Origin: Comamonadaceae bacterium
GTDB taxonomy: Bacteria; Pseudomonadota; Gammaproteobacteria; Burkholderiales; Burkholderiaceae_C
Assembly (NCBI GenBank): GCA_947372495.1
Contig: CANBTZ010000002.1
Location: 1-45,865, forward strand
Direction of reading: 5' to 3'
DNA length: 45,865 nt
In this document: positions 28,628 through 45,129 of the stretch, one piece after another
Layout: each line of letters begins with the position of its first letter
Numbering within the stretch: position 1 is the first letter of the stretch
Notes under the pieces: model-generated
Database searches by the model: none
The model's input: only the letters and a program-made list of their open reading frames with translations
Told to the model about the DNA's origin: nothing
Program-made: the position numbers and the translations under genes

Positions 28628-28707
28628 ATCTGTCGGGCTCGGGCTGTGCGGGGTGACGATGTTGAGCTTGCGTTTGAGGAACCCGCCGCAGCCCGAGTCC
28701 GACAGAT
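28628..28707. repeat. Long-stem inverted repeat with a conserved 26-nt loop (copy A)
   Basis: 27-nt arms 28628-28654 (ATCTGTCGGGCTCGGGCTGTGCGGGGT) and 28681-28707 (ACCCGCCGCAGCCCGAGTCCGACAGAT), loop GACGATGTTGAGCTTGCGTTTGAGGA. Confidence 0.85.
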
Positions 28708-34649: not shown

Positions 34650-35081
34650 ATGTCGTTCGGCCGCCTGGAATCCTCCAAAAACCCTGCGCCCATGAGCGAC
34701 ATCAACGTCACCCCCATGGTGGACGTGATGCTGGTGTTGTTGGTGATCTTCATCCTCACCGCGCCGCTGCTGACCAGCGCCATCCGCCTGGAGCTGCCCC
34801 AGGGCGAGGGCACCCAGTCCGGCCAAGCCCCGCAGTCGGTCACGCTCGTGGTCAACGCCCAGGGCGACTTGTTTTTCAACGACCAGCCCGTGACCGCGCC
34901 CGAGCTGCGCACCCGTCTGCAAGAAACCGCCCAACGCAACCCCGAGACCGAAGTGCAACTGCGGGCCGATCAGGCCATCGCCTACGGCCGCGTGGTTGAG
35001 GTCATGGGCCTGGCCCAGCAGGCTGGGCTCTCTCGCATCGGCTTCGTTGCAGAAGCCCCGCGATCCACCCCCTCCCGTTGA
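34650..35081 (+). CDS. ExbD/TolR biopolymer transport protein
   Basis: [37 protein letters not shown]. Confidence 0.93.
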
Positions 35082-35102: not shown

Positions 35103-35178
35103 AGCGCTGAGGGTGGGCGGCTTGGGCAACGATGTTGAGCCTGCGTCTGAGGCGCCCGAGCCGCACACCCTCAGCGCT
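35103..35178. repeat. Long-stem inverted repeat with a conserved 26-nt loop (copy B)
   Basis: 25-nt arms 35103-35127 (AGCGCTGAGGGTGGGCGGCTTGGGC) and 35154-35178 (GCCCGAGCCGCACACCCTCAGCGCT), loop AACGATGTTGAGCCTGCGTCTGAGGC (22/26 identical to copy A). Confidence 0.85.
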
Positions 35179-35238: not shown

Positions 35239-37929
35239 ATGCAAGACAAGTACACCCACCTCGACGTCGAAGCCGCCGCACAGGCCCGCTGGACGGCCCG
35301 CGACGCCTACCGCGTCACCGAAGACCAGAGCAAAAAGAAGTTTTACGCCTGCTCCATGCTGCCTTACCCCAGCGGCAAGCTTCACATGGGCCATGTGCGC
35401 AACTACACCATCAACGACATGCTCACGCGCCAGCTGCGCATGAAAGGCATGAACGTGCTCATGCCCATGGGCTGGGACGCCTTTGGCTTGCCCGCCGAAA
35501 ACGCGGCGCTCAAGAACAAAGTGCCGCCTGCCAAGTGGACGTACGACAACATCGCGTACATGAAAAAGCAGATGCAGGCGATGGGCTTGGCCATCGACTG
35601 GTCGCGTGAAGTGGCCACCTGCGACCCGACCTATTACAAATGGAACCAGTGGCTGTTCCTCAAGATGCTGGACAAAGGCATCGCCTACCGCAAGACCCAA
35701 GTCGTCAACTGGGACCCGGTCGACCAGACCGTGCTGGCCAACGAACAGGTCATCGACGGCAAAGGCTGGCGCACAGGTGCACCGGTCGAAAAGCGCGAGA
35801 TCCCCGGCTACTACCTCAACATCACCTCGTACGCACAAGAGCTGCTCGACCACGTGCAGATGGGCAATGAAAAAGCCACCTTGGACGGCTGGCCCGACAA
35901 AGTCCGCCTGATGCAGGAAAACTGGATCGGCAAATCCGAGGGCGTGCGCTTTGCGTTCCCGCACACCATCGCTGGCGCTGATGGCGCTCTGATCGGCGAC
36001 GGCAAGATGTATGTCTTCACCACCCGTGCCGACACCATCATGGGCGTGACGTTTTGCGCGGTAGCGGCCGAGCACCCACTGGCGCTGCATGCTGCGGCCA
36101 GCAACCCCGCGTTGGCGGCGTTCCTGGACGAATGCAAAACCGGCGGCACGACCGAAGCCGAGTTGGCCACGCAAGAGAAAAAGGGCATGGCCACGGGCTT
36201 GTTCGTCACGCACCCGCTGACGGGCGCACAGGTCGAGGTTTGGGTCGGCAACTACGTGCTGATGAGCTACGGCGACGGTGCCGTGATGGGCGTGCCTGCG
36301 CATGACGAGCGCGATTTTGCCTTTGCACTCAAGTACCAGCTGCCGATCAAACAAGTCGTGTCGGTCAAGGACCAGGCATTTGATGCCAGTGCCTGGCAAG
36401 AGTGGTACGGCGACAAGCAAAACTGCGTCTGCATCAACTCCGGCGAACTAGATGGCCTGAATCAGAAGGCCGCCGTCACCAAAGTGGCCGAGCTGCTCGC
36501 TGCCAAAGGTCTGGGCGAGAAGAAGACCACTTGGCGTCTGCGCGACTGGGGCGTGAGCCGCCAACGTTACTGGGGCACACCGATCCCGATCATCCATTGC
36601 GAGGAGCACGGCGCGGTGCCCGTGCCCGAAAAAGACCTGCCCGTGGTGCTGCCGCAAGACTGCATCCCGGACGGTTCGGGCAACCCGCTGCACAAGCACG
36701 AAGGCTTCCACGCGGGTGTGACCTGCCCGGTCTGTGGCAAACCTGCCCGCCGCGAGACCGACACCATGGACACCTTCGTGGATTCGTCCTGGTATTTCAT
36801 GCGCTATTGCGACCCGACCAACTCCGAGAAGATGGTGGCCGAGGGCGCCGACTACTGGATGCCGATGGACCAATACATCGGCGGCATCGAGCACGCGATC
36901 CTGCACCTGCTGTACGCGCGCTTTTGGACCAAGGTCATGCGCGATCTGGGTCTGGTCAAGGTCGACGAGCCCTTCAGCAAGCTGCTCACCCAGGGCATGG
37001 TGCTCAACCACATCTACTCGCGTCGCACTGCCAAAGGCGGCAAGGACTACTTCTGGCCGCACGACATCGAGCATGTGCTCGACGAAACCGGCAAAGTGGT
37101 GGGCGCCAAGCTCAAGAACGAAGCCGAGAGCAGCGACGGCCGCTTGCCTGTGGGCACCGCCATCGACTACGAAGGCGTGGGCACCATGTCCAAGTCCAAG
37201 AACAACGGTGTGGACCCGCAAGACCTGATCGAGCGCTACGGCGCCGACACCGCGCGCCTGTACACCATGTTCACCGCGCCGCCCGAAGCCACCCTGGAGT
37301 GGAACGACGCCGCCGTGGAAGGCAGCTACCGTTTCCTGCGCCGTGTTTGGAATTTCGCGGTCAAGAACGAAGCCTTGCTCAAGAAAGGCATTGCGGTCGA
37401 CCGCAGCCAGAACGTGGAATTCGGCAAAGCCGCCAAGGCGCTGCGCCTCGATATCCACTCCGTGCTCAAGCAGGCCAACTACGACTACGAGCGCATGCAG
37501 TACAACACCGTCGTCTCGGCGGTGATGAAGATGCTCAACACGCTCGAAGACGTGCAACTGTCGGACAGCGCCGAAGATGCCGCAGCCCTGGCCGAGTGCT
37601 TCTCGATCCTGCTGCGTGTGCTCTACCCCGCCTGCCCGCACATCAGCGACCAGCTCTGGAACGAACTGGGCTACGCCGCCTGCTGCGGTGACCTGCTCGA
37701 CGTGGCCTGGGCGAGCGTGGACGAATCCGCTTTGCAGCGCGATGAACTGGAACTCATGCTGCAGATCAACGGCAAGCTGCGCGGCGCCATCCTCGTGCCT
37801 GCAACGGCTGACAAGGCGCAAATCGAAGCTGCAGCGCTGGCGAGCGAAGCTTTCGTCAAGCAAGCCGAAGGCGCTGCGCCCAAAAAGGTCATCGTGGTGC
37901 CCGGTCGCTTGGTGAACGTGGTGCTCTGA
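35239..37929 (+). CDS. leuS: Leucyl-tRNA synthetase
   Basis: [51 protein letters not shown] (HMGH) and [11 protein letters not shown] (KMSKS-like). Start at MQDKYTHL. Confidence 0.98.
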
Positions 37930-42324: not shown

Positions 42325-44232
42325 TTGTCTATTCATGGCTCGGCTTGGTCCGGGCTTTTCAGTGTGTCTTCTACAAAATCCTCTCTCGCGGCACTGACTT
42401 TGGGCGCCATTGGCGTGGTGTACGGCGATATCGGCACCAGTGTGTTGTACGCGATGAAAGAGGTTTTCGGCTCGGGCCATGTGCCCTTCACGCCTGAAAA
42501 CATCTACGGCATCCTCTCGATCTTCTTCTGGACCCTGACGGTCATCGTTTCGCTCAAATACGTGTCGCTGGTGCTGCGGGCCGACAACCACGGCGAGGGC
42601 GGCCTGGTGGCCATGCTGGCGCTGGCCTCTCAGGCCGTCAAAGACAAACCCAATCTGCGCAAAGTGTTGCTGGTGGTGGGCATTTTTGGCACCTGTCTGT
42701 TTTATGGCGATGGCGTCATCACTCCGGCGATCTCGGTCTTGTCTGCAGTGGAAGGTTTGGAAGTCATTTCACCCAACTTCAAAAAATCGGTCATCCCGCT
42801 CACGCTGGTGATCTTGTTTTTGCTGTTCTGGGTGCAAAAGCGCGGCACCGCAGGCATCGGCAAATTCTTTGGCCCCATCACCTTGATCTGGTTTGCCGCC
42901 ATTGCCGTTCTGGGCGTTTCCCACATCGTCCAACGTCCTGAAATTTTGCTGGCCATCAGCCCGCACTACGCGGTGCGCTTCATTTGGGACCAGCCGGGCG
43001 TCACCTTCATCATCCTGGGCGCTGTGGTGCTGTGCGTCACGGGCGGCGAAGCCCTGTATGCCGACATGGGCCACTTTGGCAAAAAGCCGATCCGTCTGGC
43101 CTGGTTCAGCGTGGTCATGCCTTGCCTGACCTTGAACTATTTTGGGCAAGGCGCGCTGCTGCTGGCGCATCCTGAGGCGAAAGAAAACCCCTTCTTCATG
43201 ATGGCCCCCGATTGGGCCTTGGTGCCGCTCGTGGGCCTGGCCACCATGGCCACCGTCATTGCTTCGCAGGCGCTCATTTCTGGGGCGTTCAGCGTCACGA
43301 AACAAGTCATCCAACTGGGCTACTTGCCGCGCTTGCAAGTCCAGCACACCAGTGAAACCGACACCGGGCAGATTTACATGCCTTTCGTCAACTGGGGTTT
43401 GTTTGCCGCCATCGTCTTGGCCGTGGTCATGTTCAAGTCGTCCAGCAACCTGGCCGCAGCCTACGGCATTGCCGTGTGCACCGACATGCTGATCACCACC
43501 GTGCTGACGTATTTTGTGATCCGATATGCCTGGAAGATGCCGCTGCTGCTGTGCATCGCCGCGACCGGCTTTTTCTTCATGGTCGATCTGGCCTTCTGGG
43601 CCTCCAATTTGCTTAAGCTGTTTGACGGCGGTTGGTTCCCGCTGCTCATCGGCGCGGCCGTGTTCACCCTCATGCTGACCTGGCACGACGGCCGACGCCT
43701 GCTCAATGATTCGCTGCGCTCAGATGCACTGCGCCTGACGGACTTTCTGGAAGCCGTTTTCATTGCGCCACCCACGCGTGTGGAAGGCACAGCGGTGTTT
43801 TTGACGGCCGAGACAGGCGCGGTGCCCAACGCGCTGCTGCACAACCTCAAGCACAACAAGGTGCTGCACGAGCGCAATTTGTTTGTCACCGTGCGCAGCC
43901 ACGAAGTGCCGCGCATGGATGCCGACAAACGCCTGGGCGTGACACCGCTGGGGCATGACTGCTGGCAAGTCATCGTCAACTACGGCTTCAAGGACAACCC
44001 CGATCTGCCCTCAGCCTTGGCCACCATTCAAGGGGACGGCTACAAGCTCGACCCGATGATGACCAGCTACTTTCTGTCGCGTGACATCGTGATCCCGACC
44101 ATTGGCGGCGGCATGGCCCAGTGGCGCGAAAAGTTGTTTGCACAGATGCACCACAACGCCAGCGCTGCGGCCGAGTTCCTGAACCTGCCCACCAACGCCG
44201 TGGTCGAGCTGGGCTCCAAAATCGAGATTTGA
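42325..44232 (+). CDS. kup: Kup-family potassium transporter
   Basis: [31 protein letters not shown]...[17 protein letters not shown]; 12 TM. Start uncertain (GTG near 42363 possible). Confidence 0.95.
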
Positions 44233-44239
44233 TCCTCAG

Positions 44240-44264
44240 TTAATTGGGGTCAGATCCCAATTAA
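44240..44264. repeat. REP-like palindrome TTAATTGGGGTCAGATCCCAATTAA
   Basis: 9-bp perfect arms TTAATTGGG/CCCAATTAA with loop GTCAGAT, between convergent kup and psd. Confidence 0.65.
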
Positions 44265-44271
44265 ATCTTGA

Positions 44272-45129
44272 TCAATTCAGCGAGCCCATTGCTTCGCCCA
44301 TCACGATGGGCCGAGTGGGTGTCCAGTCCTTGTTGAACTGCATCACCCCTTGGGGGAAAAGCATCACCACGGTGGAGCCGAGCAAAAAGCGGCCCATCTC
44401 TTCGCCTTGAGCCAGTGCGATGTTGCCCATCTCGTAGGCCCACTCACGCACCGTACCGGGGCGCGGTGGGTTGACCACCCCGTGCCACACGGTGGCCATG
44501 CTGCCCACAATGGTGGCGCCCACCAGCACAATCACAAACGGGCCGTGCTCCCCCTCGAACACACACACCACGCGCTCGTTGCGGGCAAACAGCCCTGGCA
44601 CGCCGCGGGCTGTGGTTGGGTTCACTGAAAACAGATCGCCCGGCACGTAAATCATGCGCGTGAGCCGTCCCGCGCAAGGCATGTGGATGCGGTGGTAGTC
44701 GCGCGGGCTGAGGTACAGCGTGGCAAATTCACCGTCCTGAAACTGCGCAGCCAGCGCGGCGTCGCCGCCTACCAGCGCCTGCGTGCTGTAGCTGTGGCCC
44801 TTGGCCTGAAACACCTGATCGCCCGCGATCGGGCCACATTGGCTGATGGCGCCGTCCACCGGGCTGAGCAGGTCGGCCTGGGCCAGTGGGCGTGCACCAC
44901 CACGCAGCGGGCGGGTGAAGAACTCGTTGAAGCTCACGTAGCTGGCTGTGTCCGGGTTGGCTGCTTCGGCCATGTTCACGTTGTAGCGCCGCACAAAACG
45001 GTTGATAACCCCGGTGGTGAACGCGCCCCACTGGCGACTCGCCACCCAGCCGGCAAACACCGTGAGGGCTTGCTTAGGCATCAGGTACTGGGGCAAAACC
45101 GCCAGGCGGTCAGAGAAAGAAGGGGACAT
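44272..45129 (-). CDS. psd: Phosphatidylserine decarboxylase proenzyme
   Basis: [20 protein letters not shown]...[18 protein letters not shown]...[16 protein letters not shown] (LGST pyruvoyl cleavage site). Confidence 0.96.

Follow-up and report, generated by a model that had tools for sequence, protein, structure and literature searches.

Hairpins with a constant internal-loop core and free stems in Limnohabitans and other Comamonadaceae: small DNA palindromes of a family that seems not to have been described

The gap between exbD and leuS in a Comamonadaceae genome (GCA_947372495.1, contig CANBTZ010000002.1) holds a long-stemmed hairpin, copy B, whose loop recurs on a different stem in a second hairpin, copy A, of the same 45,865-nucleotide stretch (the whole of the DNA analysed, here called the window). 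What kind of element keeps its loop and changes its stem? The geometry of copy B that was claimed in an earlier note on this DNA was reproduced (Table 1): its arms form 23 Watson-Crick pairs, one T.G wobble and one G.A mismatch around a 26-nt loop (35128-35153), in which the K position of the core, 35134 (G), stands opposite the M position, 35147 (C). The loops of the two copies are identical at 22 of 26 positions, as had been reported, and the closing segment changes from GGGT/ACCC in copy A to GGGC/GCCC in copy B, while the rest of the outer stems is unrelated. Copy A sits in the gap between converging nucleoside phosphorylase and CorA genes, and copy B in the arrangement dapB-exbB-exbD / leuS, with exbD and leuS both on the plus strand, so the settings were also given correctly. 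The folding energy of copy B is -57.2 kcal/mol (z = -5.5), a value that was not reached by any of 200 shuffles. Two loop matches with at most three mismatches were found against 0.01 expected, and the best 25-nt arm match in the window was 23, compared with a maximum of 21 among 60 Markov shuffles.

Table 1. Positions of the hairpins, their parts and neighbouring genes (window coordinates unless a contig or locus is named)
Feature	Position	Strand	Remark
Copy A left arm	28628..28654	+	
Copy A loop	28655..28680	+	core GACGATGT ... TTTGAGGA; K-M pair is G.T
Copy A right arm	28681..28707	+	
exbD	34650..35081	+	upstream of copy B, co-directional; PF02472, 9.9e-33
Copy B left arm	35103..35127	+	variable outer stem with GGGC collar at its end; partner 35154-35178
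Copy B core, 5' strand	35128..35135	+	AACGATGT; internal-loop core RACGATKT found in 136 distinct elements
Copy B inner segment	35136..35145	+	TGAGCCTGCG; variable, the inner mini-hairpin varies among sub-families
Copy B core, 3' strand	35146..35153	+	TCTGAGGC; core YMTGAGGM
Copy B right arm	35154..35178	+	pairs with left arm
leuS	35239..37929	+	downstream of copy B; leuS of relatives holds a third, in-frame copy (site C)
Site C, empty in the window's leuS	36355..36387	+	11 protein letters, not shown
RAYT beside uvrA	G000 contig C55 8109-8333 (L237); L228 427-888; L221 68-520; L232 7882-8394		

Thirty distinct hairpins were aligned without gaps over 78 columns, and their pairing was assessed on a stem named in advance. 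Paired cells amounted to 93.6% against 60.9% after shuffling, double changes were present in 23 of 26 pairs, and the covariation score reached 0.845, compared with 0.214 for shuffled alignments and at most 0.161 for slid partners. The covariation of the arms, proposed earlier as a check, is thus evident, and the opinion that copies A and B are not a simple duplication was borne out, the stems covarying yet being mutually unrelated. The existence of a hairpin family is virtually certain. A larger family was recovered when a covariance model of the 30 hairpins was run over the genus, and its matches share the edges but carry other inner loops. Matches below about 60 bits were at one stage taken for terminators, an assignment that was given up, many of them being true members with longer inner loops on inspection. 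The loop-defined family of the earlier note is therefore real, but only a sub-family had been seen, and the conserved part is an internal-loop core common to many inner-loop types.

In each element, an outer stem of variable sequence, about 20-26 bp long, leads to a GGGY/RCCC collar, an internal loop in which 5'-RACGATKT faces 5'-YMTGAGGM, and a variable inner mini-hairpin, such as CTGG-TACC-CCAG, CTGC-TC-GCAG or GGCG-TACCCC-CGCC. The fixed letters of the core were set by the search pattern, and the independent evidence comes from the K, M, outer-mismatch and second-base positions, which were free or partly free in that pattern, and from the pairs. Among 136 distinct elements, the K-M pair was T-A in 98, G-C in 36 and another combination in 2, the outer mismatch was G.A in 101, A.C in 32 and different in 3, and the closing pair was Y-R (C-G, T-A or T-G) with one exception. 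The internal loop can be read as a C-G pair, tandem G.A/A.G, T.T, and then T-A or G-C. A description of this motif was not found in the literature searched, with most subscription papers outside its coverage. No Rfam family matched at gathering score, and lax thresholds gave only miRNA-like chance matches. Apparently, this family of small DNA palindromes has not been described before.

The A/B-type loop was detected in Limnohabitans, Rhodoferax and other Comamonadaceae by an exact-pattern scan of 84,980 species. It always lay within a well-paired stem, except in chance matches and in one or two copies that are decaying. No viral contig contained it, and a single chance 19-mer was obtained from phage and plasmid records. 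Exact core matches were present in 81 of 90 genomes of the genus (a reversed-pattern control was near zero), with a maximum of 13 per genome and five in the window's genome. These five are copies A and B and one element each on contigs C21, C104 (in uvrA) and C241 (adjoining xseA), the latter three with inner loops that differ from the A/B type; no further A/B loop was found in this assembly (2.82 Mb, 310 contigs, 83% complete) with a 22-nt loop pattern at up to three mismatches. At the level of the family Comamonadaceae, the core pattern occurred in 21 of 201 genomes. Proper stems, with 16-20 of 20 flanking positions paired, were seen in the genus itself and in roughly eight further genera of the same family, and core matches elsewhere in the order, with 5-12 of 20 positions paired, are chance. 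The structured elements do not extend beyond the family to which Limnohabitans belongs. Two records look mis-binned or mislabelled: L052, titled Akkermansia muciniphila, whose leuS-region genes share 42-88% protein identity with those of the window, and L070, titled Gammaproteobacteria, whose uvrA is near that of Rhodoferax records.

Three sites for the A/B-type loop recur in the genus, namely A, B and a site C in leuS, where the in-frame element is antisense to leuS and inserts ...GASDASSTSLP... into the protein. Among 19 site-C loci, most of them chosen for holding the loop somewhere, 16 are filled, two (the window and L076) are empty, and one (L054) carries a different insert. This insert in L054 is unlike the hairpin and of similar length (ARNDEVVVHEYKDNVSGHAHRELRDAHTGDVLTEVGGRF). 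In L058, the exbD-leuS gap has a tandem repeat, ACAAGGGGATGGCTCCC, and no site B hairpin. The loop of site A is inverted in L060.

In Rhodoferax-like records, the A/B-type loop is found in frame in uvrA, in both orientations and up to four times per gene, and the uvrA linkers of many species hold an inverted pair of hairpins. Other in-frame copies are located in a NuoG-type gene (L044, L153) and in the DNA polymerase III alpha gene, dnaE (L164). Each strand of the element has one open phase, which the copies in long reading frames use. The loop length is 2 mod 3 in 86 of 90 coding copies against 20 of 62 elsewhere (Fisher p about 1e-17), counts in which uvrA is over-represented, about 30 uvrA sequences having been selected on purpose. 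Under a fold-back idea, in which one arm is native and the other copied, inspection by eye gave mixed indications: the arms of uvrA S3 and S4 hint either way, and in leuS both arms look added. Unrelated palindromes occupy other linkers of uvrA instead; at linker S3 in L214, L227, L216, L218, L220 and L223, the in-frame palindromes are of the GGCATGGATCC...GGATGAC type and the GCTTGCAGGCAAGCTCCTAC (GTAG REP) type. At site S1 of uvrA in L141, the hairpin was lost almost precisely between GGCC repeats, and a 16-base near-palindrome, GGCTCCGGCCGAAGCC, remains.

It might be supposed that such hairpins are transcription terminators or mRNA-end hairpins, in agreement with the convergent gap of copy A, the place of copy B after exbB-exbD and the location of some other copies near gene ends. 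Intrinsic terminators combine a short loop with a T-tract after the stem, whereas copies A and B have neither a T-tract nor a terminator-like match, the loops measure 26-35 nt, and many copies lie within coding sequence or antisense. The doubt that the earlier note had cast on this role was well placed, and we consider it extremely unlikely. Both coding and gap copies are frequently antisense to their genes, and the GA core is present on one strand only, the complementary strand being without it. Given the two orientations, a role in the sense mRNA does not cover all sites, and the antisense copies, with the core on one strand only, favour DNA over mRNA. Together with the lack of T-tracts at A and B, the orientations favour a DNA element that is recognised as a folded strand.

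How the copies are maintained is indicated by comparisons between species. The earlier note had held that retention at the same sites with fixed stems would mean ancestral local structures rather than a dispersed family. Sites A, B, C and those in uvrA are indeed kept in related species, but the family is dispersed as well. Stems from the same site remain homologous in lineages that have diverged, as expected of old, vertically kept structures, but they are not fixed: they drift with compensation, and the core hardly changes. For same-site stems in divergent lineages (kept at <75% identity each), the mean alignment score was 3.2, compared with about -1.35 for between-site pairs, and none of 2000 label permutations was as high. 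This homology implies that the copies are of long standing and have been inherited where they are. It speaks against the alternative, also considered, that one site received new stems by separate insertions. In uvrA, the arm identity between species is about 98% at S1, 96-97% at S2 and 93-95% at S3, against 53-55%, 75-78% and 61-67%, respectively, in the 30 nt outside the arms. No recent insertion was caught among the loci compared. Conserved terminal inverted repeats, as in MITEs, are lacking, since the termini are not common to different sites, and no target-site duplication could be delimited. Long retention at the same sites fits badly with a plain mobile element.

Palindromes without function could also be kept perfect by template-switch (quasi-palindrome) correction. 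The compensated drift of same-site stems, the loop inversion at site A and the hairpin loss between short repeats in L141 are all expected of palindromes, but this process leaves unexplained why unrelated locations share a fixed core although their stems and inner loops vary, and why arms are 93-99% identical beside flanks at 53-78%. Neutral correction is accordingly a very improbable account.

The same conservation in place would be expected of a host regulatory or structural site, such as a protein-binding hairpin in DNA or RNA, that is kept by selection, has a non-mobile origin and has been copied locally. The kink-turn is a protein-binding RNA module with tandem sheared G.A pairs beside a three-base bulge on one strand. 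The hairpin core resembles it in its GAT/TGA tandem G.A, its T.T (U.U in RNA) and the covarying Watson-Crick pair that follows. Sites with a conserved core are shared between species and between genera, and conservation is much higher in the arms than in the flanks. The core differs from a kink-turn in that the loop is symmetric, with a 3x3 part in which RAC is opposite GGM and no three-base bulge, and in being often antisense to host genes. Moreover, the genes and gaps in which the copies lie are unrelated, both orientations occur, and some copies are in coding linkers of uvrA, leuS, nuoG and dnaE. It is hard to name a role common to such places. In L060, furthermore, the loop is flipped at site A. 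We regard a host site of non-mobile origin as unlikely, though it deserves attention.

The possibility of a mobilising enzyme was raised by the earlier note, which suggested a RAYT-type transposase. RAYTs are present in the genus. Four genomes, the window's own among them, have a short RAYT (TnpA-REP) gene immediately downstream of uvrA, and GTAGGAG-type REPs flank each of these genes. In other bacteria, REPs have been reported from uvrA, dnaE and genes for tRNA synthetases, in frame like the hairpins here (PMC3733652). A RAYT as mobiliser therefore looked promising at first and was dropped, because GTAGGAG-type REPs of their own, and in no case core hairpins, flank the RAYT genes of the genus. 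No other RAYT or Y1 locus examined holds a core hairpin, and neither a mobilising enzyme nor a binding protein for the hairpins was found. GTAG REPs bear an unpaired GTAG tag at the stem foot, have a linked RAYT flanked by the repeats, and usually exceed 100 copies per genome; in the hairpins, foot and outer stem are not conserved between sites, no GTAG is present, and exact core matches number at most 13 per genome. That the hairpins are GTAG-type REPs mobilised by RAYT transposases of the genus is hence highly doubtful.

Rickettsia palindromic elements (RPE) are palindromes in frame within protein genes, and in-frame insertion in uvrA, leuS, nuoG and dnaE likens the hairpins to them. The hairpins differ in belonging to another lineage, in combining a constant core with a variable stem and in occupying gaps too, the RPE families being compared here by description and not by sequence. 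REPs of the GTAG and CGTC super-families are, like the hairpins, short dispersed palindromes, often in inverted pairs and in gaps; some are nested in longer palindromes, and the CGTC class has no linked transposase (PMC3733652). CGTC REPs share a common stem of 8-9 bp (PMC3733652), starting with A-T pairs and accompanied by a CGTC tag and a CCA tail, whereas the hairpin stems are 20-26 bp long, GC-rich and unrelated between sites. The hairpins have no CGTC foot tag; ATCGTC is restricted to the complementary strand of the internal loop, and it is this loop, near the tip, that is conserved. The hairpins stand closest to those REP/RPE palindromes that have inserted in genes, but without the tags, copy number and transposase of these.

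On balance, we think it probable, if by a modest degree, that the hairpins are REP/RPE-like DNA elements with a recognised core, kept as structure-specific recognition sites. Each element would work as a folded single strand, either a hairpin or a cruciform arm, and a putative structure-specific protein would read the internal loop RACGATKT/YMTGAGGM, by analogy with E. coli TnpA-REP, whose single-strand enzyme needs a conserved mismatch bulge on one folded strand (PMC8266576). The E. coli system requires GTAG (PMC8266576), whereas GTAG and a cognate enzyme were not found for the hairpins. The outer stem and the inner mini-hairpin would be clamps only, hence free to change while pairing holds. 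Copies may have been dispersed by a past mobilising activity, and those in genes would have survived only where the open frame was kept, as flexible linkers. At present they would be inherited in place, probably since a bound factor makes them useful or keeps repairing them. A further, tentative proposal, which we hold to be possible but rather less than probable, is that of a new nucleic-acid module with tandem G.A pairs in an internal loop of 8x8, borne on free stems at fixed sites. This module would be selected at the DNA level and read by a dedicated, putative structure-specific protein in Comamonadaceae, even within uvrA and leuS.

To our knowledge, the palindromic repeats described so far in bacteria retain their stem and a foot tag. 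The hairpin family reverses this arrangement, the core being constant, the stems free and the positions fixed. It supplies a putative recognition motif defined by covariation, together with long-standing in-frame insertions in essential genes. Its cultured hosts (Limnohabitans, Rhodoferax) make the persistence of palindromes without a transposase accessible to experiment. The window also contains an AT-rich inverted repeat with a 1-nt centre at 44226-44278, between ORFs 42325-44232 and 44272-45129, which is unrelated to the hairpin family.
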